From a virus: a DNA stretch of 21,149 bases. A model generated the notes under the pieces. The model was given only the letters and a program-made list of their open reading frames with translations. It ran no database searches and was not told the DNA's origin. This document shows positions 2,056 to 14,059 of the stretch, in pieces. A program made the position numbers and the translations under genes. Numbering within the stretch: position 1 is the stretch's first letter; the number at the start of each line of letters is the position of its first letter. The stretch is from positions 1 through 21,149 of the IMG/VR virus record IMGVR_UViG_3300010354_000829; one strand, 5' to 3'.

Positions 2056-2307
2056 TTGCAGCGTAAAACTCGCAGTATTTTAGAAGAATTGGAAACCCTT
2101 AGTCTTAACAAAGACAAGACTAATCTGGTAGAAAATAGAGCTGCACACGTAATACAAGGTGCTATAAATCTTTTGACCTTTATAAAAGAAAATTATAGTA
2201 CAGATGTTTCAGAAGAGCTTAAAAAACGATTATTGTTAAGCATAAGAAATGAAAATCAAGAGAAGTTTCAGAAAGGTATTAAAAAATTAAAAAATGCGCC
2301 TAAATGA
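2056..2307 (+). CDS. Small helical protein of unknown function, TTG start
   Basis: An 83-residue, strongly charged, all-helical-looking protein (RSILEELETL..., then two further amphipathic helices and a lysine-rich end). I recognise it as the kind of small conserved protein found beside the helicase in marine T4-like phages, but know no function. TTG is chosen as the start because a GGAG ribosome-binding site (2046-2049) lies six bases upstream and no in-frame ATG offers a comparable site. Its 3' end overlaps the next gene by 14 bases. A role in replication or recombination (for example a small mediator) is possible from position only; a structural role is equally open because the following genes look virion-related. 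Confidence 0.6.
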   Translation: MQRKTRSILEELETLSLNKDKTNLVENRAAHVIQGAINLLTFIKENYSTDVSEELKKRLLLSIRNENQEKFQKGIKKLKNAPK

Positions 2308-2920
2308 AATTACAGCAGCAACTAGTCCTAGAATAGGCACAGTTTTTAAAAGATTGGGGCAGGGTGCTCTTGCATTTTTAGGTAAAAAATACGATCCAAA
2401 CGATCCCGGAGTACAGCAAAGTTTCGAAGAGGATTTTTTTAAAAATCTTGATAGAACCAGCTATCAAGAATTTATGAAACAAAAATATGAGGCTGGTTTA
2501 CTTACAGGCCAATGGCCTTATAGATTAGTCCCCAATTCAGCACAAGGTCAAAATGAAGCTAGCGTTTCTTCCACTCTAGCAGAATTTGCTAGTGAGTTTT
2601 TCCTAGGAAGAACTTATGGTAGTTATTTACTGCCAAACGAACAACAGGAAATGATTGCGGCTATACAGAATTATAAAGAAGTTAATACATTCAGTCAGGT
2701 TAAAACTGCATTGGCTAAATTATCTGCCAAATATGAAGAACTATATGCAAAATCTAAAGCTACCCCCAAAGTTAATATTCAATTAGTGCAGCAACTTGCT
2801 AATTCAATTAATCAAATTGGTTCTGCTCATCCCCAATTTAAAGACCTTATTGTTAACGAATTACGAATGAGTATATCTAGATATATGCCATATAGAGGCG
2901 GTAGAGGTACTTTTAGATGA
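2294..2920 (+). CDS. Unknown phage protein with putative capsid-targeting leader
   Basis: 208 residues, no recognised domain. It begins MRLNEITAA, with L-N-E at residues 3-5, a match to the (L/I)-x-E prohead-protease cleavage motif of T4. The same type of start recurs in four nearby genes. The body has a basic, Gly-rich segment (about 14-35), then a mostly helical, polar region with many Gln/Lys/Glu, and a Gly/Arg-rich end (YRGGRGTFR). No membrane segment is visible. It overlaps the previous gene by 14 bases and the next by four (ATGA), so it is part of a coupled run. Inference: a protein placed inside the prohead, possibly a core or internal protein injected with DNA. There is no sequence evidence for an enzymatic activity. 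Confidence 0.65.
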   Translation: MRLNEITAATSPRIGTVFKRLGQGALAFLGKKYDPNDPGVQQSFEEDFFKNLDRTSYQEFMKQKYEAGLLTGQWPYRLVPNSAQGQNEASVSSTLAEFASEFFLGRTYGSYLLPNEQQEMIAAIQNYKEVNTFSQVKTALAKLSAKYEELYAKSKATPKVNIQLVQQLANSINQIGSAHPQFKDLIVNELRMSISRYMPYRGGRGTFR

Positions 2921-3189
2921 GAATAAATGATATTTTAACTGAAGCTCCCAATTTCGCTACACAACCTATCCCTGGTAGTAGTTCTGGACTAATTATGCCT
3001 GCAGGAGCAAGAACTGCAAATAAACCTTCATCCGCAGCAGGCGAAACAACACCACCTTCGGGCGAAACAGAAGGCAGTATTGATACAAAAAATTCAGAGC
3101 TTAGTAATCAATTCTATCAATTATTGAATCAAATACGTTATTTAGATTATGATAATTCCCTTGCCCTGTTAAACTTATTGACCAAATAA
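2917..3189 (+). CDS. Small protein with putative capsid-targeting leader
   Basis: 90 residues in three parts: a leader MRINDILTEAPN, with L-T-E at residues 7-9 fitting the T4 prohead-protease consensus; a low-complexity linker rich in Ser, Gly, Thr, Pro and Ala (about 15-58); and a C-terminal amphipathic helix pair (about 60-90) rich in Leu, Asn and Gln. The start codon overlaps the previous stop (ATGA at 2917-2920), and the next gene begins one base after its stop. I do not recognise a family. The design (cleavable leader, flexible linker, short helical module) fits a prohead core or internal-protein role; this is inference from layout. Confidence 0.6.
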   Translation: MRINDILTEAPNFATQPIPGSSSGLIMPAGARTANKPSSAAGETTPPSGETEGSIDTKNSELSNQFYQLLNQIRYLDYDNSLALLNLLTK

Positions 3190-3190
3190 T

Positions 3191-4369
3191 ATGCGTATAT
3201 TTGAACTAAATGAATCTACAGAATTAGGTAAAGCACATCTAACTCATTTTGAGGATGCTATTATTCTACAGGGATCACAAGGGGCCGAAAAAGCTTTACA
3301 AACTCTGGAATCTATTCTACAACATCCTAATACTGTAACAGAAAAGTTTGATGGTTATCCTGCACTAATATTTGGACATGATCTAAATGGTCAATTTAGT
3401 GTAGTGGATAAACATATGTTTGATCAGGGGGTGTTACCTGCCAGTCCACAAGACTTTATTCAACACGATATTAATAGAGGTGCGGATAGATCAAATTTAC
3501 ATTACATAATTAATAATATTTGGAATCCTCTACGTCAGGCTAGTGCCAATTCCAAAGGATTCTATTGGGGTGATTTATTATTAGGTTATACACCAAAACC
3601 AGAAAATGGAAAATATGTTTTTCAACCTAACCCCAATGGTATTAGATATGAAGTACAAGAAAATTCAGCCTTGGGTAACTACATAGGTAGTAAAGTGGCC
3701 ACAATTGCAGTTCATCAATATATAGATCCGGGTACTTATTTTAATATACAACAGCAAAATCAATTAGCAAAAAGTTCGGGAAAAAGAATAAAAAAATTAA
3801 AAGCTACAGATTATGCAATTAGTCTTAATGGCGGGTTAGGGGAACTAAGAACTGATACTAAAATAGGTATATTGCCCAGTAGATTACCAGTTACTCCATC
3901 TTTACAATTGGATGCAAGATATCTCAATCAACTTAGATCCCAATTACAAAGATACGGTGACTATATTGATATATTGTTAACTGGTAGTCCTGTTAGCGAT
4001 AATGTGTTTAAAGAAACATATCTAATGAAATATATTAATTTTAAAGTCAGACAACGTGACCTAAACGTATCCGCTGATGAGTTTATACAGTATGTTAATA
4101 ATTTTATTCCAATGTCTGATATAGTTAGAGCTAAAATGTTAGACTTTTTATCTAGAAGTAGACCGCATTTAAACATTTTATTTGCAATGTGGCGTGCATT
4201 ATATGCTGTTAAGTTGTCATTATATAGACAGATGAATCGTGCAGCTCAACAAAGTCCTCTTATTGGATATTTAAAATCGGGACAACGAAGTCAAGAAGGA
4301 TTTGTGGCTCAGGGGTATAAATTTATTGATAGACCAAAATTTAGTGCTCAGAACCTCGAGGGCAGATAA
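3191..4369 (+). CDS. DUF6267-like protein with KxDG nucleotidyltransferase signature and putative capsid-targeting leader
   Basis: 392 residues. After a leader MRIFELNESTELG (L-N-E at 6-8) comes HLTHFEDAIILQGSQGA, then TEKFDGYPALIFG with a K-x-D-G motif (Lys about 52, Asp 54). That motif is the signature of covalent nucleotidyltransferases (ATP-dependent DNA/RNA ligases, capping enzymes), where Lys forms the nucleotidyl adduct. Further matches are GFYWGDLLLGY (about 123-133), FQPNPNGIRYEV, and, near the C-terminus, EGFVAQGYKFIDR (Glu about 369, Lys about 377), placed like ligase motifs IV and V. From memory, this layout matches an uncharacterised phage family (DUF6267) common in marine myoviruses, often with the same kind of leader. 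The order of motifs is seen directly; ligase or nucleotidyl-transfer activity is inferred. It ends 59 bases before the next gene, in a gap with a late promoter. Confidence 0.7.
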   Translation: MRIFELNESTELGKAHLTHFEDAIILQGSQGAEKALQTLESILQHPNTVTEKFDGYPALIFGHDLNGQFSVVDKHMFDQGVLPASPQDFIQHDINRGADRSNLHYIINNIWNPLRQASANSKGFYWGDLLLGYTPKPENGKYVFQPNPNGIRYEVQENSALGNYIGSKVATIAVHQYIDPGTYFNIQQQNQLAKSSGKRIKKLKATDYAISLNGGLGELRTDTKIGILPSRLPVTPSLQLDARYLNQLRSQLQRYGDYIDILLTGSPVSDNVFKETYLMKYINFKVRQRDLNVSADEFIQYVNNFIPMSDIVRAKMLDFLSRSRPHLNILFAMWRALYAVKLSLYRQMNRAAQQSPLIGYLKSGQRSQEGFVAQGYKFIDRPKFSAQNLEGR

Positions 4370-4381
4370 ATTTCATTTTGG

Positions 4382-4389
4382 TATAAATA
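4382..4389 (+). promoter_or_regulatory. T4-type late promoter
   Basis: A perfect TATAAATA box in the 59-base gap upstream of the small structural gene starting at 4429. T4-like phages read late genes from this box using a phage sigma factor (gp55 type). The leader that follows carries AAGAGGAAAA as a strong ribosome-binding site. The gene behind it ends in a strong terminator, giving a compact, probably highly expressed single-gene unit. Confidence 0.75.
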
Positions 4390-4428
4390 AAGTTATGCGG
4401 AAACGCAAACTTTTAAGAGGAAAATAAA

Positions 4429-4851
4429 ATGGCAGTTTTTACACGTACAAATGGTAATGCACAAAACGTAGTTAGCGTTGGCAATATCGCTCTTAGCACA
4501 GAAGCCAGTTCACTTGGTGTGCCTGTCAGCACTGGTATTGGTAAGCCAATCCAGGCTTTTTCGGTTAATGCTAATGTTGCTTTTACAACAGCATTAGGAA
4601 CCGGTGAAGCAGTTGAAGCAATTCTTCGCACAATTGGTCTAAACAGTACACTACTTGCATATCAAGTAAGCAGTGCTGGAATTGGTGGCATCACTAACGG
4701 TCTTATCAGTGTTGTTATCGAGGATAGTAGCTGGAATGCAACAGATTTAGAAGCTAATATTGTTGCACTTGGAACAGTAAGCGGTGTTAACTTAACTGGT
4801 GTTAAAGTTGCACAGCCTGGTCTTAAGTTTGTAACTACAGCTGGTAACTAA
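4429..4851 (+). CDS. Small probable virion structural protein, likely abundant
   Basis: 140 residues starting MAVFTRTNGNAQ. It is rich in Ala, Gly, Val, Thr and Ser, with very few charged residues and alternating hydrophobic segments, suggesting a beta-rich coat, decoration or tail-type protein. From memory, proteins with an M-A-x-F-T-R-T-N-G start are recurrent unannotated structural proteins of marine T4-like phages. The genetic setting supports high expression: a perfect late promoter, a strong AGAGG ribosome-binding site seven to ten bases before ATG, its own terminator, and more use of C-ending and G-containing codons (GGC, GTT, CTT, CGC) than its neighbours. No signal peptide or membrane segment. 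Exact role (capsid decoration or other) is not determinable from sequence alone. Confidence 0.65.
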   Translation: MAVFTRTNGNAQNVVSVGNIALSTEASSLGVPVSTGIGKPIQAFSVNANVAFTTALGTGEAVEAILRTIGLNSTLLAYQVSSAGIGGITNGLISVVIEDSSWNATDLEANIVALGTVSGVNLTGVKVAQPGLKFVTTAGN

Positions 4852-4871
4852 TAAGATATTATATATCTTAT
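4851..4871 (+). repeat. Perfect 9-bp inverted repeat directly after the stop codon
   Basis: ATAAGATAT (4851-4859) and ATATCTTAT (4863-4871) form a perfect stem with a three-base loop. The hairpin begins at the last base of the stop codon and lies four bases before the terminator hairpin. An RNA hairpin here could block 3' exonucleases or stabilise the message. Confidence 0.6.
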
Positions 4872-4874
4872 CCC

Positions 4875-4904
4875 AAAAGGCAGCATATGCTGCCTTTTCT
4901 TTTG
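4875..4904 (+). terminator. Rho-independent terminator
   Basis: Bases 4875-4898 are a perfect 24-base palindrome (core GGCAGCATATGCTGCC with A4/T4 flanks), followed by CTTTT. As RNA this is a G+C-rich stem of about eight to ten pairs with a short loop and a U-rich tail, the classic intrinsic terminator. It ends the transcript of the structural gene at 4429-4851. Confidence 0.9.
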
Positions 4905-4923
4905 ACTAACATTTCTGTCACTT

Positions 4924-4931
4924 AATAAATA
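4924..4931 (+). promoter_or_regulatory. Probable late promoter box, variant AATAAATA
   Basis: AATAAATA lies just downstream of the terminator and 20 bases before the next start codon, with an AGGAA ribosome-binding site between (4940-4944). One mismatch to the T4 late consensus. A promoter is expected here because transcription from upstream is terminated. Confidence 0.5.
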
Positions 4932-4950
4932 ATACAAACAGGAATTTATT

Positions 4951-5229
4951 ATGCCACAGGGTCCTAGCGAAATTGAAAAACATAATTTAGAGGCTCACGT
5001 AGAGTTATGTGCCGAAAGGTATAAAAGTTTAGAAGACAAATTAAATAGAGTTCACGCCAGATTAGAGGATCTAGAATCTCACGTTATTAGTATAAGAGAT
5101 AGTTTATCTAATAAAACAGCTAATTTAAGTTCTGGAATTAACAAGCAAATAATTGCAATAGGAACTAGCATAATAGGAGTTTTATTAGCTGCTAATGTAA
5201 CCTTGATAGTTAATCTTATTAACAAATGA
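4951..5229 (+). CDS. Small coiled-coil protein with C-terminal membrane segment
   Basis: 92 residues. Residues 1-65 are a charged, heptad-like helix (HNLEAHVELCAERYKSLEDK, then LNRVHARLEDLESHV). Residues about 66-88 are a single hydrophobic segment (IIAIGTSIIGVLLAANVTLIV), followed by a short polar end. This is the architecture of XhlA/DUF7201-type small phage membrane proteins and of some holin partners; the HNLEAHV-x-LC pattern is one I associate with that phage family. It could help in lysis or anchor a complex at the membrane, but it is far from the cell-wall hydrolase at 17592, so a lysis role is only a possibility. ATG is preceded by AGGAA. Its stop overlaps the next start (ATGA). Confidence 0.6.
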   Translation: MPQGPSEIEKHNLEAHVELCAERYKSLEDKLNRVHARLEDLESHVISIRDSLSNKTANLSSGINKQIIAIGTSIIGVLLAANVTLIVNLINK

Positions 5230-5441
5230 AAATAGTAGAATTAACCAAAAAGAATCTGACTGTTTACATCAATAATGAAGAGTCGGAATTACTAAAAGAA
5301 TTTAATGATGAAAATCCTATTTGGCTTAAACGTGAGCTTAATGATAGACAACAAATTATTGCTAATCAACTTGTACACAAAGATATTTTAAAAAGAATTA
5401 AACATGAAGGCAGAATCGCTTACAAAAAAACAATTAGGTGA
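5226..5441 (+). CDS. Unknown small charged protein
   Basis: 71 residues, highly charged (many Lys, Glu, Asn), with no recognised domain. It begins MKIVELTKKN, similar in look to neighbouring leaders but lacking a clear (L/I)-x-E site near the N-terminus. Most of the body looks helical. It overlaps the previous gene by four bases and the next by 38 bases, so it is embedded in a coupled run and is likely translated. No function can be assigned. Confidence 0.5.
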   Translation: MKIVELTKKNLTVYINNEESELLKEFNDENPIWLKRELNDRQQIIANQLVHKDILKRIKHEGRIAYKKTIR

Positions 5442-5910
5442 ATTGCTAGTAGGATTAGCAATCGATAAATTAGAATTTTGGGCCAAAAAAGAAATTGATT
5501 TTTTGACTTACAATTATAAAAAGGTAGTCTGCTTACCATTAACTAAAAATTCTTGGCTTGTTGGCAAGTATAAAGTTGTTAAAAAGGATCAGGAATATGT
5601 TATATATGACGACAATAAGCCTAAATACAAATTCCAAAACAACAGAGCAGTGTTTGTCTATTGCGTATTAGATAAGTTAAGGATACACGGTTTAAGTAAT
5701 CAGATATTACTTAACGATCAACTAATAAACAGATTAGCAAACGAACTGAATACATTAGAATTTAAAAGAAAAATCTATAATAAAAGGAATAACGATAAGT
5801 TTTTCATAATTGATTCGAGATTAAGTGAGGTTAAATTAAAATTGGATCAGGCTAAAAAAGATTTGGAGAAAAACTTACTTTCGGCTAAATATTTAAAAGT
5901 TTGGGACTAA
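5404..5910 (+). CDS. Unknown phage protein
   Basis: 168 residues, basic (rich in Lys) and with many Leu, Asn and Tyr. Residues 1-35 look helical. A middle stretch (about 40-95) has alternating hydrophobic and polar residues suggesting a small beta domain (NSWLVGKYKVVKKDQEYVIY). The C-terminal 60 residues are a long charged helix, probably coiled coil (SEVKLKLDQAKKDLEKNL). No catalytic motif or membrane segment is seen. Its start lies 38 bases inside the upstream gene, and the next gene begins three bases after its stop. Position between probable capsid-interior proteins suggests a virion or assembly role, which is inference only. Confidence 0.55.
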   Translation: MKAESLTKKQLGELLVGLAIDKLEFWAKKEIDFLTYNYKKVVCLPLTKNSWLVGKYKVVKKDQEYVIYDDNKPKYKFQNNRAVFVYCVLDKLRIHGLSNQILLNDQLINRLANELNTLEFKRKIYNKRNNDKFFIIDSRLSEVKLKLDQAKKDLEKNLLSAKYLKVWD

Positions 5911-5913
5911 CAT

Positions 5914-6591
5914 ATGATTCTTAATGAACTAAATTATAATAAACAACGTAAGTTGAATGCACTATTAGAAAGTCGTTTTGGTGCTAAAATTAATTTTTCT
6001 AAACTTAGTTTAGATAAAGCACAACGTCTTGAAGAAAATATTACTCGCCATCTTAAAGACTTAAGAATGTCACAGGGTACTGCTAACCTTCAAAAAAATC
6101 CAAAATACATGGAAATGTTAATGGTTAAAGAGGGACTTAATGAGTGGATTAAAAATCATCAAAAATTACTAGAAGGTAAATTAGAAGCAGCAGAGGTAGC
6201 ATTAGCAGCCAAAGATATGGTAGATAGTTTACAGAACATGATCGAAGATGCTAGCAAAATGCTTAACGAACAACTGCCGCCTCTAGTAGATACTATACGT
6301 GATCAATTAGGACCCGAACAGGCAGATTCATATCAAGGTATGACATCTGGTTCATTACAGACTCTATTAGATAATTTAAAAAGTGCAAGAGAAAGTTTAG
6401 ATCAAGGTGCTCGTTTACTAGCAGGAGATGAAACAGCGGCAATGGCAGGTGCTGAAGGAACATCACCACCAATGCCTGGTATGGATTTACCCCCTCCCGA
6501 ACTAGGTGCTGATCAAGATCTAAATGCTGAACTTGCACAATCAGATGCCGCAGTGGGCGGAGCAAAAGTAGCAGGAAGAGCAAAAAGATAA
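5914..6591 (+). CDS. Probable capsid-core or scaffold-like protein with putative targeting leader
   Basis: 225 residues. It begins MILNELNYNKQRKLN (L-N-E at 3-5). Residues about 20-190 are long amphipathic helices with strong acidic/basic patterning (RLEENITRHLKDLR, KDMVDSLQNMIEDASKML). The tail from about 175 is Ala/Gly/Pro/Met-rich and acidic (MPGMDLPPPELGAD), ending basic. I recall the LNxLLExR-(F/Y)-G start and the DMVDSLQxM(I/V)E segment from a conserved structural protein family of marine T4-like phages, without a settled function. The helical, charged make-up resembles prohead core/scaffold proteins. The stop overlaps the next start (TAATG), and the next gene also carries a leader and a Pro/Met-rich acidic tail, suggesting the two act together. 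Confidence 0.6.
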   Translation: MILNELNYNKQRKLNALLESRFGAKINFSKLSLDKAQRLEENITRHLKDLRMSQGTANLQKNPKYMEMLMVKEGLNEWIKNHQKLLEGKLEAAEVALAAKDMVDSLQNMIEDASKMLNEQLPPLVDTIRDQLGPEQADSYQGMTSGSLQTLLDNLKSARESLDQGARLLAGDETAAMAGAEGTSPPMPGMDLPPPELGADQDLNAELAQSDAAVGGAKVAGRAKR

Positions 6592-7106
6592 TGCGTTTTT
6601 ATGAATTTGCGCATCAGCTTCGAGAAGAAGCTGATACTGCATCAGTAGACACTCTTATTTCAGTTCTAAATAATTTGCAATTTAGAATGAGTAAAGAGGG
6701 TGCAGATACTCCTGTTTCTAAAGACACAATTATTAACCTGGTCAGAAACAGCGGTGTGCCCAGTTTTGATGAAAGCGATCTTAGACAGGCTTGGGATAAT
6801 AGTTTAGCTGTAAGAAATTTAATAAAAGAGCCTAATAAAGATGAAGAAAGTATTAGCTTCATGAAGGGCGAAGAATATCAACCACCAGATGAATTAGGTT
6901 TGGATCAACCCTTGGATATGCCTACACCTGAGATGCAAGGAACCTTACCTCCAGGAATGGAAATGCCTATAGACCAACCCGGTCTAGTAGGGCAAGATAC
7001 TAGTGTGATGCCAACTACCAGTGGCGGTCCACCAGAAGGGCCCACTGGAGATAGACAAACAGTAAGTCAAATGGCCGATAGAGCTTTACGAAGAAGAAAC
7101 AAATAA
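6591..7106 (+). CDS. Unknown protein with putative capsid-targeting leader
   Basis: 171 residues. The start is MRFYEFAHQLREEAD, with L-R-E at 10-12. Residues 16-85 form a compact helical region (VDTLISVLNNLQFRM... and FDESDLRQAWDNSLAVRNL). The rest (about 95-160) is low complexity, rich in Pro, Gly, Met, Gln and Asp, with a short basic end (ALRRRNK). It resembles, from memory, short MR(I/F)-x-EF-starting proteins that sit next to the preceding family in marine T4-like phages. It is joined to the upstream gene by a one-base TAATG overlap. One base separates its stop from the stop of the convergent erpA gene, with no terminator between them. Confidence 0.58.
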   Translation: MRFYEFAHQLREEADTASVDTLISVLNNLQFRMSKEGADTPVSKDTIINLVRNSGVPSFDESDLRQAWDNSLAVRNLIKEPNKDEESISFMKGEEYQPPDELGLDQPLDMPTPEMQGTLPPGMEMPIDQPGLVGQDTSVMPTTSGGPPEGPTGDRQTVSQMADRALRRRNK

Positions 7107-7107
7107 C

Positions 7108-7431
7108 TTATATACTAAAACTAGATCCACAACCGCAAGTAGAAACAGCATTGGGGTTGCGAACAAAAAAACTACTTCCTGATATATCATCTTTATAATC
7201 GATTTCTGCACCCTCTAGATACTGCATACTAATAGCATCTACAAGTACTTTAAAAGGGCCAATTGCTATTTCAAAGTCGTCGTGATTTTGATCGTTATCG
7301 AAAGTAAAACCATATTGAAAACCACTGCAACCGCCGCCCTGAACAAAAGTTCGTAGATTAGTATTTGGATCGTTTTCTTCTAGTAAAAGTTCCACAATTC
7401 TCTGTTTGGCTTGTTCACTGATAGTAATCAT
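7108..7431 (-). CDS. erpA: A-type iron-sulfur cluster carrier, ErpA-like
   Basis: 107 residues, the usual length of ErpA/IscA proteins, and the only minus-strand gene in the window. A-type carriers accept a nascent [2Fe-2S] or [4Fe-4S] cluster from the scaffold and deliver it to apo-enzymes in the cytoplasm. All three cluster-binding cysteines are present: [16 protein letters not shown] (Cys about 35) and [11 protein letters not shown] at the C-terminus (Cys about 99 and 101). The [14 protein letters not shown] and NPNA[11 protein letters not shown] blocks are typical of ErpA rather than IscA, and the GAEIDYKDD-like block is one I associate with betaproteobacterial ErpA. Base composition is AT-rich like the phage, so it is probably a long-standing resident. 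No strong ribosome-binding site is seen before its ATG. It is divergent from iscU and convergent with the gene ending at 7106. Confidence 0.92.
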
Positions 7432-7445
7432 GTTAATATTTACTA

Positions 7446-7453
7446 TATAAATA
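7446..7453 (+). promoter_or_regulatory. T4-type late promoter for the iscU operon
   Basis: A perfect TATAAATA box in the 56-base gap between erpA (leftward) and iscU (rightward), 34 bases before the iscU ATG. An AAAGGG ribosome-binding site follows at about 7475-7480. The box is oriented only toward iscU, so iscU-def-iscA are likely late genes while erpA would need another promoter. Confidence 0.7.
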
Positions 7454-7487
7454 ATTTAGATAAAAAATAGATATAAAGGGTTAAACA

Positions 7488-7868
7488 ATGGCATATAGTG
7501 AACGTGTTTTAGATCATTATGAAAATCCCCGTAATGTAGGATCATTTGCCAAAGACGATCCAAACGTAGGAACTGGTATGGTTGGTGCACCAGCCTGTGG
7601 TGATGTAATGAAACTTCAAATTAAGGTAGACGAAAATGGTATTATTCAAGATGCACGGTTTAAGACGTATGGCTGCGGCTCGGCGATCGCAAGTTCATCA
7701 CTCGTTACGGAGTGGATCAAAGGTAAGACGTTGGACCAGGCGGGATCTATTAAGAATACTGAAATCGCCGAACATCTTGCACTCCCCCCAGTTAAAATAC
7801 ATTGCTCGATTCTTGCTGAAGACGCGATCAAAGCGGCTGTAAATGACTATCGAAGTAAACATTTATAA
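7488..7868 (+). CDS. iscU: Iron-sulfur cluster scaffold protein IscU
   Basis: 126 residues, essentially full length. IscU is the cytoplasmic scaffold on which sulfur (from IscS) and iron are built into a [2Fe-2S] cluster, then passed on by HscA/HscB. Every key residue is present at the E. coli numbering: Cys37 in APACGDVM, Asp39, Cys63 in TYGCGSAIASSS, His105 and Cys106 in KIHCSILAEDA, and the HscA-binding LPPVK at 99-103. It starts MAYSERVLDHYENPRNVGSF, very close to bacterial IscU. So it should work with host IscS and HscA. Bases 7651-7860 are about 48% G+C by hand count against about 39% for 7491-7650, and use codons (GCG, TCG, ACG, CGG) rare elsewhere here, suggesting a recombinant or recently acquired 3' half. 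Its stop overlaps the def start (TAATG). Confidence 0.97.
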   Translation: MAYSERVLDHYENPRNVGSFAKDDPNVGTGMVGAPACGDVMKLQIKVDENGIIQDARFKTYGCGSAIASSSLVTEWIKGKTLDQAGSIKNTEIAEHLALPPVKIHCSILAEDAIKAAVNDYRSKHL

Positions 7869-8350
7869 TGATTAAATCAGTGGTTAAATGGCCAGATCCT
7901 GTTTTGTTAACCCCAACAAAACCCTGGAATTTTTACAATCCCCCATTCGATTATTTAGAATTAGAACAAGATCTTAAAGATACTTTACTAGAACAAAACG
8001 GTTTAGGATTAGCAGCTAATCAAATTGGTATACCATATCGAGTGTTGGCTATTAATGTACAAAAGGACAACAATCTAAGGATTATGTATAATCCTGAAAT
8101 ACTATATATTGGGTCAGAATTAGCCACTGAGTGGGAGGGCTGTCTTAGCTTCCCTAAATTAAGATTAGAAATATCTAGACCAAAATCTGTAACTTTGCGA
8201 TGGTTGGACCATTATCAATTTATTCATAGTATGGACCTTGAAAATATAGATGCAAGGTGTATATTGCATGAAATAGATCATTTAAATGGTAAAGTATTTA
8301 AAGAGTATGTAAGTGATTTACGGTTTCGCAAAGCGTGGGACAAATTATGA
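7868..8350 (+). CDS. def: Peptide deformylase
   Basis: 160 residues, slightly shorter than the E. coli enzyme. Peptide deformylase removes the N-formyl group from new proteins at the ribosome exit and uses a ferrous (or zinc) ion. All three signature motifs are intact: GLGLAANQ at about 45-52 (motif 1, with the catalytic Gln), EGCLSFP at about 90-96 (motif 2, metal ligand Cys92), and HEIDHLNG at about 134-141 (motif 3, His134/His138 ligands and Glu135 catalytic). The protein should be active. Phage deformylases are known in marine phages. Here it is sandwiched between iscU (one-base TAATG overlap) and iscA (four-base ATGA overlap), so it is made together with iron-sulfur proteins; its own iron need may be why, but this is inference. 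The sequence is AT-rich like the phage. Confidence 0.96.
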   Translation: MIKSVVKWPDPVLLTPTKPWNFYNPPFDYLELEQDLKDTLLEQNGLGLAANQIGIPYRVLAINVQKDNNLRIMYNPEILYIGSELATEWEGCLSFPKLRLEISRPKSVTLRWLDHYQFIHSMDLENIDARCILHEIDHLNGKVFKEYVSDLRFRKAWDKL

Positions 8351-8667
8351 TTAATTTAACAGATAGTGCCAAAAATCAAATTCAAAGTAATTTATTACGT
8401 AGACAAAAAGGTAAAGGAATTCGCATTGGAGTTAAAACTACAGGTTGCTCTGGACTTGCCTATGTGTTAGAATATGTAGATGAAACTACGCCAGATTTTG
8501 AAAGTTTTCTTTTTGACAGTGTCACTGTATACATTAATAAACGTGATTTGGTTTATCTCCAAGGGTTAACTATGGACTACGTAAGACAAGGTCTTAACGA
8601 AGGATTTGAATTTATTAATCCCAACGAACGAGCAAGATGCGGATGCGGTAGCAGTTTTACTGTATAA
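8347..8667 (+). CDS. iscA: A-type iron-sulfur cluster carrier, IscA-like
   Basis: 106 residues from ATG at 8347, which overlaps the def stop (ATGA). An in-frame GTG twelve bases upstream is less likely since ATG gives the family's normal length and N-terminus. IscA receives and transfers iron-sulfur clusters alongside ErpA. The cluster cysteines are Cys34 (TTGCSGLAYVLEYVDE) and Cys98/Cys100 (RCGCGSSFTV). The TTGCSGLAYVLEYVDE and GLNEGFEFINPN blocks fit IscA of the ISC operon rather than ErpA or SufA. Compared with ErpA at 7108-7431 it is clearly a different paralogue, so this phage carries both carrier types. It is AT-rich and amelioration looks complete, unlike the 3' half of iscU. Confidence 0.93.
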   Translation: MINLTDSAKNQIQSNLLRRQKGKGIRIGVKTTGCSGLAYVLEYVDETTPDFESFLFDSVTVYINKRDLVYLQGLTMDYVRQGLNEGFEFINPNERARCGCGSSFTV

Positions 8668-10361: not shown

Positions 10362-12680
10362 ATGAATAAGATATTAGTAGTAAAAAGAGATGGTCGTAAA
10401 GAAGAACTAGATTTAGAAAAATGGCAAAATCAAATTAAGAAAATCTGTACAGGCATTTCAGATGTAAGTCAAAGTATGATCGAAATTAAAGCACAACCAC
10501 ATTTTTATGATGGTATTACTACTCGACAAATTGACGAAATTACCCTAAGAGCAACTGTAGATCTAATTGATGTAGATGCAAATCCCGAAATTGGACATAC
10601 TAACTATCAATATGTGGCTGGTAAACAACGGCTTAGTATGTTAAGAAAAGATGTTTATGGTGATTATACTCCGCATCACCTGTTTGAAATTGTAAAAAGA
10701 AACATTGCAGTTGGTCTATATACAAAAGAATTATTGGAGTGGTATAACGAAGAAGACTGGAATCGTATGAACGATATGATCGATCATAGCAAAGACGAAC
10801 AATATAGCTATGCTGCAATCGAACAACTTATTGAAAAATATTTGGTGAAAAATCGTAGCACCAAAGAAATTTATGAAACACCACAGGTTCGTTATATGAT
10901 TGCAGCCGCCACTGTATTTCATCGAGAAGAACCCAATTCAGCCCGTATGAAATATATTAGGGAATATTATAATGCTGCTTCTGATGGTCTATTTACTCTT
11001 GCTACTCCTGTTCTTGCTGGCCTTGGAACGCCTACAAAACAGTTCAGTAGTTGTGTTCTTATACGTAGCGATGATGATCTTGACAGTATCTTTGCTAGCG
11101 GTGAAATGATGGCTAAATATGCTAGCAAACGAGCTGGTATTGGATTAGAAATTGGTCGTCTAAGACCATTAGGTAGTCCAATTAGAGGTGGGGAAATTAT
11201 GCATACAGGTATGATTCCCTTTCTTAAAAAATGGTTCGGCGATTTAAGGAGCTGCAGTCAAGGTGGAATTCGCAACGCTAGTGCTACTGTATTTTATCCC
11301 ATTTGGCATCATCAGTTTGATGACCTTATTGTTCTTAAAAACAATCAGGGAACCGAAGAAACCCGAGTACGGCATATGGATTATGGGGTTGTACTTAACC
11401 GTTTCTTCTGGAAAAGATTTAGAAACAGACAAAACATAACTTTTTTTGATCCCAATCAGGTTCCTGATCTTTACGAAGCATTTTATCGTAACACACAAGA
11501 ATTTGAAAAACTATATTGTGAATACGAAAAACGTACTGATCTAAGAACCAAAACAATCAGTGCAGAAGAAGTATTCAAAAGCGGGATTCTTAAAGAACGC
11601 ACAGACACAGGACGTATCTATCTTGTGTTCATTGATAATGTAATGAATCAAGGTCCATTTGATCCCGAATATCATACAATATATCAATCCAATCTTTGCG
11701 TAGAAATATTGTTACCAACTCGACCATTTAAACGTCTCGACGACGAATCTGGCAGGATCGCATTATGTACACTGGGATCAATCAATTGGGGAAGTTTTCG
11801 TAATCCAGAAGATATGCGCAGAGCCTGCAGAATTCTTCATAGAAGTCTCTGTAATATTCTTGACTATCAGGACTTTTTGTCAATACAGAGTAAAAAAAGT
11901 AACGATGAAATACAACCATTGGGTATTGGGGTGACAAATTTAGCCTATTGGCACGCTAAAAGAAATCTTAGATATGGCGACAAAGATGCACTACAGGAAG
12001 TGAAAACTTGGATCGAACACCAAGCATATTATCTGACAGAAGCTACTGTAGAATTAGCTAAAGAACGCGGTAAATGTCTTGACAGCAATCGAACACGCTA
12101 CGGTCATGGTATCTTTCCTTGGGAACTGCGTGCCAGTGCAGCCAATGAACTAGCAGATTTCACTCCTACATTGGACTGGGAAACATTGCGTACCAGTATG
12201 AAAGAACATGGTGTGCGCAATGCAACACTTATGGCAATCGCACCTGTAGAAAGTAGCAGTGTAGTAATTAACAGCACTAATGGCATCGAAATGCCTATGA
12301 GTTTGATTAGCACCAAGGAAAGCAAAGCTGGAAGTTTTGTACAGGTAGTTCCAGAATATCAAAAACTAAAACACAAATATCAACTAATGTGGGATCAAAA
12401 AGATTGTATCGGCTACATTAAAACGGCTGCAGTTCTGGCTGCTTACGTTGATCAAAGTATCAGTACAAATACTTTCTATAATCCAAAACATTTCCCAGAT
12501 CGAAAAGTGCCCACAACACTAATCGCAAACAATTTAATGCAGGCACATATTTGGGGATTGAAAACATTCTATTATAGTCTAATAGATAAACAGGGCAGTA
12601 AGAGTCAAGAAGAAGAAACATTATTAGAACCTATAGAAATAGAAAATGAAGAAGAATTTTGTGAGGCCTGTACCCTATGA
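10362..12680 (+). CDS. nrdA: Ribonucleoside-diphosphate reductase large subunit, class Ia
   Basis: 772 residues, close to E. coli NrdA (761). With NrdB it reduces ribonucleoside diphosphates to deoxy forms in the cytoplasm for phage DNA synthesis. The N-terminal ATP-cone is present (VVKRDGRKEELDLEKW, to about residue 90), so dATP feedback control may be retained. The active site is intact: Cys231 in QFSSCVLIR, NLCVE at 444-448 (Asn, thiyl-radical Cys446, Glu448), LPTRPF, and Cys469 in ALCTLGSIN. The C-terminal redox pair CEAC (767/770) that re-reduces the active site is present. A Tyr pair in KTFYYSLIDKQGSK fits the radical-transfer route. A GGAAAATCA site precedes ATG. It overlaps nrdB by four bases (ATGA), and a glutaredoxin follows nrdB, so the whole electron pathway is encoded together. 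Confidence 0.97.
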   Translation: MNKILVVKRDGRKEELDLEKWQNQIKKICTGISDVSQSMIEIKAQPHFYDGITTRQIDEITLRATVDLIDVDANPEIGHTNYQYVAGKQRLSMLRKDVYGDYTPHHLFEIVKRNIAVGLYTKELLEWYNEEDWNRMNDMIDHSKDEQYSYAAIEQLIEKYLVKNRSTKEIYETPQVRYMIAAATVFHREEPNSARMKYIREYYNAASDGLFTLATPVLAGLGTPTKQFSSCVLIRSDDDLDSIFASGEMMAKYASKRAGIGLEIGRLRPLGSPIRGGEIMHTGMIPFLKKWFGDLRSCSQGGIRNASATVFYPIWHHQFDDLIVLKNNQGTEETRVRHMDYGVVLNRFFWKRFRNRQNITFFDPNQVPDLYEAFYRNTQEFEKLYCEYEKRTDLRTKTISAEEVFKSGILKERTDTGRIYLVFIDNVMNQGPFDPEYHTIYQSNLCVEILLPTRPFKRLDDESGRIALCTLGSINWGSFRNPEDMRRACRILHRSLCNILDYQDFLSIQSKKSNDEIQPLGIGVTNLAYWHAKRNLRYGDKDALQEVKTWIEHQAYYLTEATVELAKERGKCLDSNRTRYGHGIFPWELRASAANELADFTPTLDWETLRTSMKEHGVRNATLMAIAPVESSSVVINSTNGIEMPMSLISTKESKAGSFVQVVPEYQKLKHKYQLMWDQKDCIGYIKTAAVLAAYVDQSISTNTFYNPKHFPDRKVPTTLIANNLMQAHIWGLKTFYYSLIDKQGSKSQEEETLLEPIEIENEEEFCEACTL

Positions 12681-13777
12681 GTCAAAATCAGTATGATTTA
12701 AAAACAAGAACAGATTACTTGTCTAGAAAAATGTTTCTAGACCCTGCGGGACCTGTGACAATTCAAAGATTTGAAGAAGTAAAATATAATAAACTACAAA
12801 AAATTGAACAAACTGCAAGGGGTTTCTTTTGGGTGCCAGAAGAAATCAGTCTGACTAAAGATGCTAACGACTTTAAAGAATCAAGCGAAGCAGTAAAACA
12901 TATTTTTACCAGTAACCTATTACGACAAACTGCTTTGGATAGTTTACAAGGTCGTGGACCTAGTCAAATTTTTACACCTGTAATAAGTTTACCCGAACTA
13001 GAAGCATTGGTCTATAACTGGACCTTTTTTGAAACCAATATTCATAGTCGTAGCTACAGTCATATTATTCGCAACATCTATAATGTTCCTAAAGATGTAT
13101 TCAATACTATTCACGATACAAAGGAAATTGTAGATATGGCCAGTAGTGTGGGTGACTACTACGACCAATTACATCGTATCAACTGTCATAAAGAACTAGG
13201 CAGCCCTTACTCAGAAGAAGCACATATTCGATCAATTTGGTTAGCACTACACGCCAGTTATGCCCTAGAGGCATTTAGATTTATGGTATCATTTGCCACT
13301 AGTTTGGCAATGGTAGAAAACAAGATCTTTATTGGCAATGGTAATATTATTAGTTTAATTCTACAGGATGAATTGTTACATAAGGAATGGACTGCCTGGA
13401 TTATTAATCAAGTAGTCAAAGAGGATTCGAGATTCGCTAAAGTAAAACAGGAATGTGAAGCAGAAGTGTATAATATCTATATGGATGTTATAAGGGAAGA
13501 AAAAGCTTGGGCAGATTATTTGTTTCGTAAAGGCCCGGTTATCGGTTTAAATGCTAACATTCTTAAAGAATTTGTTGATTATATTGCTGTAAATAGTCTT
13601 AAAGATATTGGAATTAAATATACTGCACCTGCACCCAAAACTACACCTATTCCTTGGTTTAACAAACATACTGATACTAGTAAAAAACAAACTGCATTGC
13701 AGGAAAATGAAAGTACTAGCTATGTAATTGGACTAATGTCCGATACATTAGAGTATGATTCTTTACCGCAAATTTAA
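12677..13777 (+). CDS. nrdB: Ribonucleoside-diphosphate reductase small subunit, class I
   Basis: 366 residues, near the E. coli length. NrdB carries the di-iron centre and tyrosyl radical that start catalysis in NrdA. Metal ligands are visible: Asp88 (ALDSLQGR), Glu119, His123, Glu198 (YALEAFRF), and Glu232/His235 (QDELLHKE). The radical tyrosine is Tyr127 in NIHSRSYSH. One feature differs from E. coli: the segment reads FETNIHSRSY, so Glu119 and His123 are four apart, where E. coli has ETIHSRSY with a spacing of three. I recall the ETNIH form from marine phage enzymes, so it may be a clade trait. The C-terminal end is acidic/hydrophobic (TLEYDSLPQI), as needed to dock on NrdA. It overlaps nrdA by four bases; 30 bases with an AAGGAG site lead to the glutaredoxin. 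Confidence 0.96.
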   Translation: MSQNQYDLKTRTDYLSRKMFLDPAGPVTIQRFEEVKYNKLQKIEQTARGFFWVPEEISLTKDANDFKESSEAVKHIFTSNLLRQTALDSLQGRGPSQIFTPVISLPELEALVYNWTFFETNIHSRSYSHIIRNIYNVPKDVFNTIHDTKEIVDMASSVGDYYDQLHRINCHKELGSPYSEEAHIRSIWLALHASYALEAFRFMVSFATSLAMVENKIFIGNGNIISLILQDELLHKEWTAWIINQVVKEDSRFAKVKQECEAEVYNIYMDVIREEKAWADYLFRKGPVIGLNANILKEFVDYIAVNSLKDIGIKYTAPAPKTTPIPWFNKHTDTSKKQTALQENESTSYVIGLMSDTLEYDSLPQI

Positions 13778-13807
13778 TGCAGCATAACTATAAAAAAGGA
13801 GAATTCA

Positions 13808-14059
13808 ATGTTAACTGTTTATTCTAAAGAAAATTGTAGCTTCTGTGTACAGGCAAAAAAATTACTAGACAAATATGCAATAGAATATCAAGAAGTCAGG
13901 ATTGATCAAAATGAGGATGCTAAGAATTTTATTTTAGCCGAGGGTCACAGAACTGTTCCTCAAATCTATAAAAACAACCAACTGTTTGTTGAAGGGGGCT
14001 ATCAAGGGCTCAGTCGATTAACGGAATCACAAATCAAGGAGAAATTGAATGTTGGTTAA
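13808..14059 (+). CDS. Glutaredoxin
   Basis: 83 residues, the standard size of a small glutaredoxin. The redox site is CSFC at residues 10-13, at the end of the first strand (MLTVYSKENCSFC), followed by the cis-proline motif TVPQIY and a Gly-Gly turn (EGGYQGL). It would pass electrons from glutathione to the C-terminal CEAC of NrdA, the job of NrdC in T4. The strong AAGGAG site and its place directly behind nrdB support this. A Ser-Phe between the cysteines is less usual than Pro-Tyr, but within the family range. The last ten bases overlap the next gene. Cytoplasmic; no signal peptide. Confidence 0.93.
   Translation: MLTVYSKENCSFCVQAKKLLDKYAIEYQEVRIDQNEDAKNFILAEGHRTVPQIYKNNQLFVEGGYQGLSRLTESQIKEKLNVG

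Follow-up and report, generated by a model that had tools for sequence, protein, structure and literature searches.

Short N-terminal leaders as probable capsid-targeting propeptides in a T4-superfamily jumbo phage fragment

Results

A block of short-leader genes follows the gp41 helicase

The window, by which we mean the whole stretch of DNA analysed here, is a complete IMG/VR record of 21,149 bases in which a primase-like ORF (10-606) and the gp41 helicase gene (603-2009) are followed by the leader block, Isc-type genes, nrdA and nrdB, and baseplate-type genes; all gene names other than gp41 come from sequence reading and synteny. Among isolated phages, PA5oct-type Pseudomonas jumbo phages have the most similar gp41 (48.7% identity), with Atu_ph07, Phosso and others next, so the window is part of the genome of a jumbo phage in the T4 superfamily, kin to PA5oct, RaK2 and CBB. 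Searched by megablast against phage records, the window had no match, and T4 late promoter matches in the window (TATAAATA; 4 versus 4.7 expected) were uninformative. A direct single-sequence search of viral contigs with the DUF6267 protein described below found no relatives, and gp41 was used as the query instead, which gave a set of 80 viral contigs, the largest of them 317 kb (G004). By sequence reading, IscA-like, IscU-like, second IscA-like and peptide deformylase-like genes (7108-8667) adjoin the virion block.

The original prediction had singled out five proteins with an (L/I)-x-E site in the first 12 residues, and all five ORFs and their starts were confirmed: MRLNE at 2294, MRINDILTE at 2917, MRIFELNE at 3191, MILNE at 5914 and MRFYEFAHQLRE at 6591, all on the plus strand. 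Their bodies, which it held to be otherwise unrelated, indeed fall into separate families in a profile search. The first gene of the block (2056..2307, plus strand, TTG start, beginning MQRKTRSILEEL; PHROG 11854 'virion structural protein') is a possible sixth leader-bearing protein (SIL-x-E↓L, where the arrow marks a putative cut) that was absent from the original list. Its L-x-E is kept in relatives with the middle residue varying, and homologs are PA5oct gp259 and one in RaK2, with CBB_292 from CBB virions listed alongside.

The putative leader MRLNE (2294..2308) begins a 208-aa protein (2294..2920) that occupies the slot preceding DUF6267 and has no homologs detectable by sequence. Proteins in this slot in relatives start MK(I/V)(N/K)E(I/V)xxE↓(G/A), whereas the window's MRLNEITAA has Ala rather than Glu at the corresponding position, about residue 8-9 (compare MKVNEIITE↓A in relatives). 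By this comparison, the LNE match does not lie at the position used by relatives, the site glutamate looks lost, and the case for a leader at 2294 is weak. The next leader, MRINDILTE↓A (2917..2943), precedes a 90-aa low-complexity, P/T/S/G-rich protein (2917..3189) for which homologs were not found; of all leaders in the window it most resembles MKINEVITE↓A of the relatives and MKTYQEFIAE↓A of T4 IPIII. It is followed by the leader MRIFELNE↓S (3191..3214) of the DUF6267 protein.

The leader region MILNELNYNKQRKLNALLE↓S (5914..5970) opens an all-helical protein (5914..6591; PHROG 14154 'virion structural protein'), the homolog of PA5oct gp247 and slot equivalent of CBB_298, whose relatives were reached by HMM or phmmer alone, tblastn against phages giving no match. 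Glu5, followed by L/M/V/I, and Glu19 are each invariant in 12/12 aligned sequences, and residues 4-22 form a helix in the structure model. Support for a leader here is good and either glutamate may be the cut site, LLE-19↓S resembling a cut more and LNE-5 having a precedent in T4 Alt. Neither PHROG 14154 nor PHROG 11854 was detected in seven Kyanoviridae records and HTVC008M; PA5oct and RaK2 were then found by tblastn.

Finally, the leader MRFYEFAHQLRE↓E (6591..6626) begins a 171-aa protein (6591..7106) whose slot is shared with RaK2 ORF136, CBB_299 and PA5oct gp246, each either detected in virus particles or carrying a virion structural annotation. It matches all three weakly by profile; for the RaK2 and PA5oct proteins an HMM search gives a weak match (E 0.004-0.03) and profile comparison a modest one (E 1e-4, probability 58%). 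The C-terminus carries a conserved V-x-x-MA-x-(K/R)A common to the RaK2 and CBB equivalents. Of the individual sites, LTE↓A at 2917, LNE↓S at 3191 and LRE↓E at 6591 have strong support.

At residues 2-12, [LI]-x-E occurs in nine of 31 plausible window genes against 2.7 expected from internal 11-residue stretches of the same window proteins (binomial P 0.001; shuffled N-termini P 0.005), and eight of these nine genes fall from the gp41 helicase to the IscA-like gene, inclusive. The concern, raised with the original prediction, that so short a motif can arise by chance was justified for the bare L-x-E, which is unspecific and also matches at 5226 (MKIVELTKK), 7108 and 18161, but not for the window as a whole, which holds an excess. 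Since the bare motif is weak evidence, we tested it on relatives.

Leaders are conserved by slot and diverge in sequence

When N-termini were aligned across related phages, as the original prediction had advised, the hydrophobic-x-Glu was kept by slot while the leaders diverged. The corresponding slots of dozens of uncultivated relatives hold short, divergent leaders with a T4 IPI-III-like start (M-K/R-x-x-E-F/I), which vary in length and terminate in hydrophobic-x-Glu, usually with a small residue next. Relatives carry MKIKDIVQE↓G, MKVNEIITE↓A, MKINEVITE↓A, MKINEILKE↓G and MKIKEITE↓G in the pre-DUF6267 slot, and MRASDFIRE↓D, MRANDFILE↓S, MRSYEFLAE↓D, MRIRDIILE↓A and MKVNDIVVE↓N in the 6591 slot, where some have the start motif and no LxE site. 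The DUF6267 leaders (MKLFEIKKQSADFLLTE↓S, MKLFEIRQTPPRWLILE↓G, MRFREIVAE↓A, MQLHEIQNKSPSWQLVE↓A, MNIEFIEYLNE↓A, MLLEFITTLTE↓G) vary in both length and sequence, and most finish in [LIV]-x-E↓small directly before the domain. Lengths in the curated set run from 5 to 19, and P1' is mostly G/S/A/D in this hand-picked set of leaders.

A leader-plus-site regex matched 4/4 nonredundant N-termini of the pre-DUF6267 family, 15/22 of the 5914 type, 14/37 of the DUF6267 type and 5/18 of the 6591 type, for which shuffles predict 0.0-0.2 matches, against 1/25 for gp41 and none in the other control families of neighbouring housekeeping genes; the regexes were drawn up after viewing the relatives and the PA5oct block, so these family counts are partly descriptive and gauge specificity rather than discovery. 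The 5226 family has the start motif in 13/14 sequences and the site in none. A leader scan of one relative (G001, 201 kb) gave seven matches versus 1.1 expected. Pelagiphage HTVC008M showed no excess under the strict pattern (1 match versus 0.89 expected), and the leader is therefore confined to few genes in this phage.

Two further observations were made among these contigs. Four consecutive genes at 266855-270148 of G004 (10755-14048 of locus L120) have MRxxEFxxE leaders on weak ParB-like, DUF6321, weak RegB-like endoribonuclease and GNAT acetyltransferase domains, and are candidate injected enzymes. In the pre-DUF6267 slot of four loci (L021, L029, L070, L022), the predicted mature start after the Glu is Gly/Ala-rich and amphipathic-looking (e.g. 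GFWSGLGNLAHGAALGATSAM), and such starts are possibly membrane-active.

Leaders are gained and lost, and LxE sites persist at fusion junctions

The DUF6267 homolog of HTVC008M has a leader (MYNDLLVE↓DKNTHLEHLED), whereas cyanophage homologs are leaderless and begin MAKNTHLEHLED, MAKNTHLEH or similar; the adjacent cyanophage cytidylyltransferases are leader-bearing (MRFLDFIKE↓A, MITFHVFITE↓A, MKRFLQFLSE↓A, MRFRQFIIE↓A). Some relatives have DUF6267 fused to an N-terminal domain that itself starts [LI]-x-E↓GGNVFKD; in two loci (L061, L065) the pre-DUF6267 protein has joined the fusion too, giving an 852-aa protein (9758-12314 in L061) in the order pre-DUF6267 protein, GGNVFKD domain, DUF6267, with LxE at the junctions. 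LxE stands at 14/15 listed fusion junctions, some of them near-identical, and such retention is, as far as sequence can tell, the behaviour expected of protease sites. By reading, relatives of the GGNVFKD domain carry a GSTG..SGDLDLAVD nucleotidyltransferase-like motif. Several proteins of the cyanophage block in the gp41-gp61 interval (L002, L008, L010, L011) have a C-terminal tail resembling W-R-x-(E/N)-(M/L/I), such as YDWRKEMGVD, YSWRAELGISE and NWRDEMGGN.

The DUF6267 protein is a predicted ligase-fold enzyme

The protein at 3191..4369 (plus strand) matches DUF6267 (PF19782) at E 3.7e-29 and 102.7 bits against a Pfam gathering threshold of 27. The Pfam entry gives its function as unknown, and our literature search found DUF6267 named in no paper. 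Its structure model has a mean pLDDT of 92 and falls below 50 only at residues 1-14, the leader and linker, which are disordered and lie outside the fold. Ligase motifs are readable as KxDG, GDLL, EGFVA and the motif V lysine; across 23 sequences K52, D54, G55, E369 and G370 are invariant, and G127, D128 and K377 nearly so. In a VIA-align search the top rows were nearly all RNA/DNA ligases, with a best Z of 7.5 over 178 residues (a middling score, being below 8), and plain Foldseek gave no significant PDB match. Since motifs and fold agree, DUF6267 is likely to be a ligase-fold nucleotidyltransferase of the covalent nucleotidyltransferase superfamily. The model also has a helical insertion at about residues 242-352.

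Virion proteomics and the prohead protease in relatives

In PA5oct, most genes of the matching block are labelled 'structural protein, ESI-MS/MS', including those for gp247 (MFLKDVKITE↓S), the homolog of the 5914 protein, and gp246 (MKIKDILVE↓S), in the 6591 slot. A fixed motif applied genome-wide was found in 5/93 MS-detected PA5oct proteins versus 2/370 others (OR 10.5, P 0.004), one of the five lying in the block that had been read beforehand. Another of the five is gp333, in the gp67 slot beside the portal, which starts MKINDIITE↓G; the protein in the gp67 slot of G004 starts MILNEL, the same as 5914. Leaderless proteins of the PA5oct block (e.g. gp251) were MS-detected too, so virion presence alone is no proof of a leader role. 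Table 4 of the CBB account lists the products of CBB_292, 294, 298 and 299 in virions (PMC5259590), and these genes directly follow gp41 (CBB_291). The leader-bearing cyanophage cytidylyltransferase family T4-GC190 was likewise detected in purified virions (Sullivan 2010, PMC3037559). Published virion MS therefore covers two of the five slots, 5914 and 6591 (PA5oct gp247/gp246, CBB_298/299), and no counterpart of 2294, 2917 or 3191 was recognised in the PA5oct/RaK2/CBB virion block.

The gp21-like protease that the original prediction had advised seeking elsewhere in the genome was not found in the 21-kb window but is present in relatives, with homologs in G004, HTVC008M and P-TIM40 and a gp21-type protease annotated in PA5oct. 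G001 has no gp21 or gp23 match in its 201 kb, where both probably lie off the fragment, and G004 was used instead.

Discussion

In our view these leaders are probably capsid-targeting propeptides like those of the T4 internal proteins, cut by a gp21-family prohead protease. The N-terminal M-(K/R)-hydrophobic-x-(E/D)-(F/I/L) part would bind the prohead core during assembly, the protease would cut after the Glu of hydrophobic-x-Glu, the mature protein would stay inside the head, and the cargo would be ejected into the host. The peptide is thus probably a label of proteins carried within the virus particle. The leaders themselves, their conservation with variable length and sequence, their gain and loss, the sites at fusion junctions and the gp21-type protease in relatives, together with the association with virion proteomics, support in part the T4-like targeting and cleavage originally proposed, with two amendments: the position of the match at 2294, and 5914, which may be cut at LLE-19↓S.

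One alternative is that the segments target the proteins by attaching to the prohead core or some other partner in assembly but remain uncut, with the Glu lying on the face that binds. In T4, targeting can be separated from processing (review PMC9026906), the start motif occurs without a site in 5226-type and some 6591-type proteins, and the invariant Glu5 of 5914 with its hydrophobic successor would suit such a face. We nevertheless think this unlikely, given that the x of L-x-E is free while the hydrophobic residue and Glu are kept, that the site persists at internal fusion junctions where no targeting is required, that P1' is mostly small or Asp in the hand-picked set, and that the specificity of T4 gp21 is identical.

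It is less likely still that the motif is shared by chance, through the residues common at the starts of AT-rich phage genes (M-K/R, hydrophobics, E). L-x-E is short, the window matches at 5226, 7108 and 18161 have no other support, and HTVC008M shows no overall excess; against this, specific families exceed their shuffles and their neighbours do not, the slots keep the site while the sequence diverges, and both the excess in G001 and the run of four MRxxEFxxE genes in a single 317-kb contig go beyond it. Least probable, if by little, is that the leaders have nothing to do with capsid entry and are a positional or structural motif, simply the opening helix in the small virion proteins of a single tail or head module, as the modelled helix of 5914 and the leaderless virion proteins of the block might suggest, because the 3191 leader is disordered outside its fold, and because enzymes (DUF6267, cytidylyltransferase, GNAT) and proteins encoded at distant loci have leaders as well.

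If the leaders are indeed capsid-targeting propeptides, a sequence-readable leader would allow capsid cargo and candidate injected proteins to be listed for uncultivated jumbo phages, in which most virion proteins have no function assigned. Which enzymes T4-type phages carry into the cell with their DNA would become a testable question; among the candidates are a weak RegB-like match, GNAT acetyltransferase domains and the ligase-fold protein. A bolder extension, which we consider improbable, is that these jumbo phages carry a nucleic-acid-repair kit in the capsid, in which ligase-fold DUF6267 and the nucleotidyltransferase-like domain, sometimes made as a polyprotein cut at LxE junctions, would be injected with the genome and mend RNA/DNA cuts made by host defences before phage expression.

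The leader type is already known, and what is new is its spread and its enzyme cargo. T4 IPII and IPIII start MKTYQEFIAE↓A and IPI starts MKTFKEFTSTTTPVSTITE↓A, the cut positions being those of the T4 literature, and both start and cut motif match the window's MRINDILTE↓A and the long DUF6267 leaders; in each case unrelated bodies lie under a common leader. The bodies here have no detected relation to the IPs and include predicted enzymes, the genes sit between gp41 and nrdA, and cleavage is predicted. In the T4 capsid-targeting sequence (CTS), of length 10-19, residues 4 and 7 have a role in targeting, whereas processing involves residues 8 and 10 (PMC9026906). T4 Alt, the virion ADP-ribosyltransferase, is cut at ITE-6 (PMC5694885) and thus combines enzyme cargo with a very short leader, a precedent by which the five-residue MILNE and MRLNE remain possible, although no ADP-ribosyltransferase domain was detected in the five window proteins. 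phiKZ and SPN3US likewise use a Glu-specific prohead protease with many cleaved head and ejection proteins (PMC5694885), but theirs is a separate phage lineage with S/A/G-x-E propeptides, in which P3 is A/S/G rather than L/I. The PA5oct/RaK2/CBB block shares the gene order, with virion-found homologs of 2056 and 5914 and a slot equivalent of 6591, and differs in that the available portions of its published accounts describe no leader.
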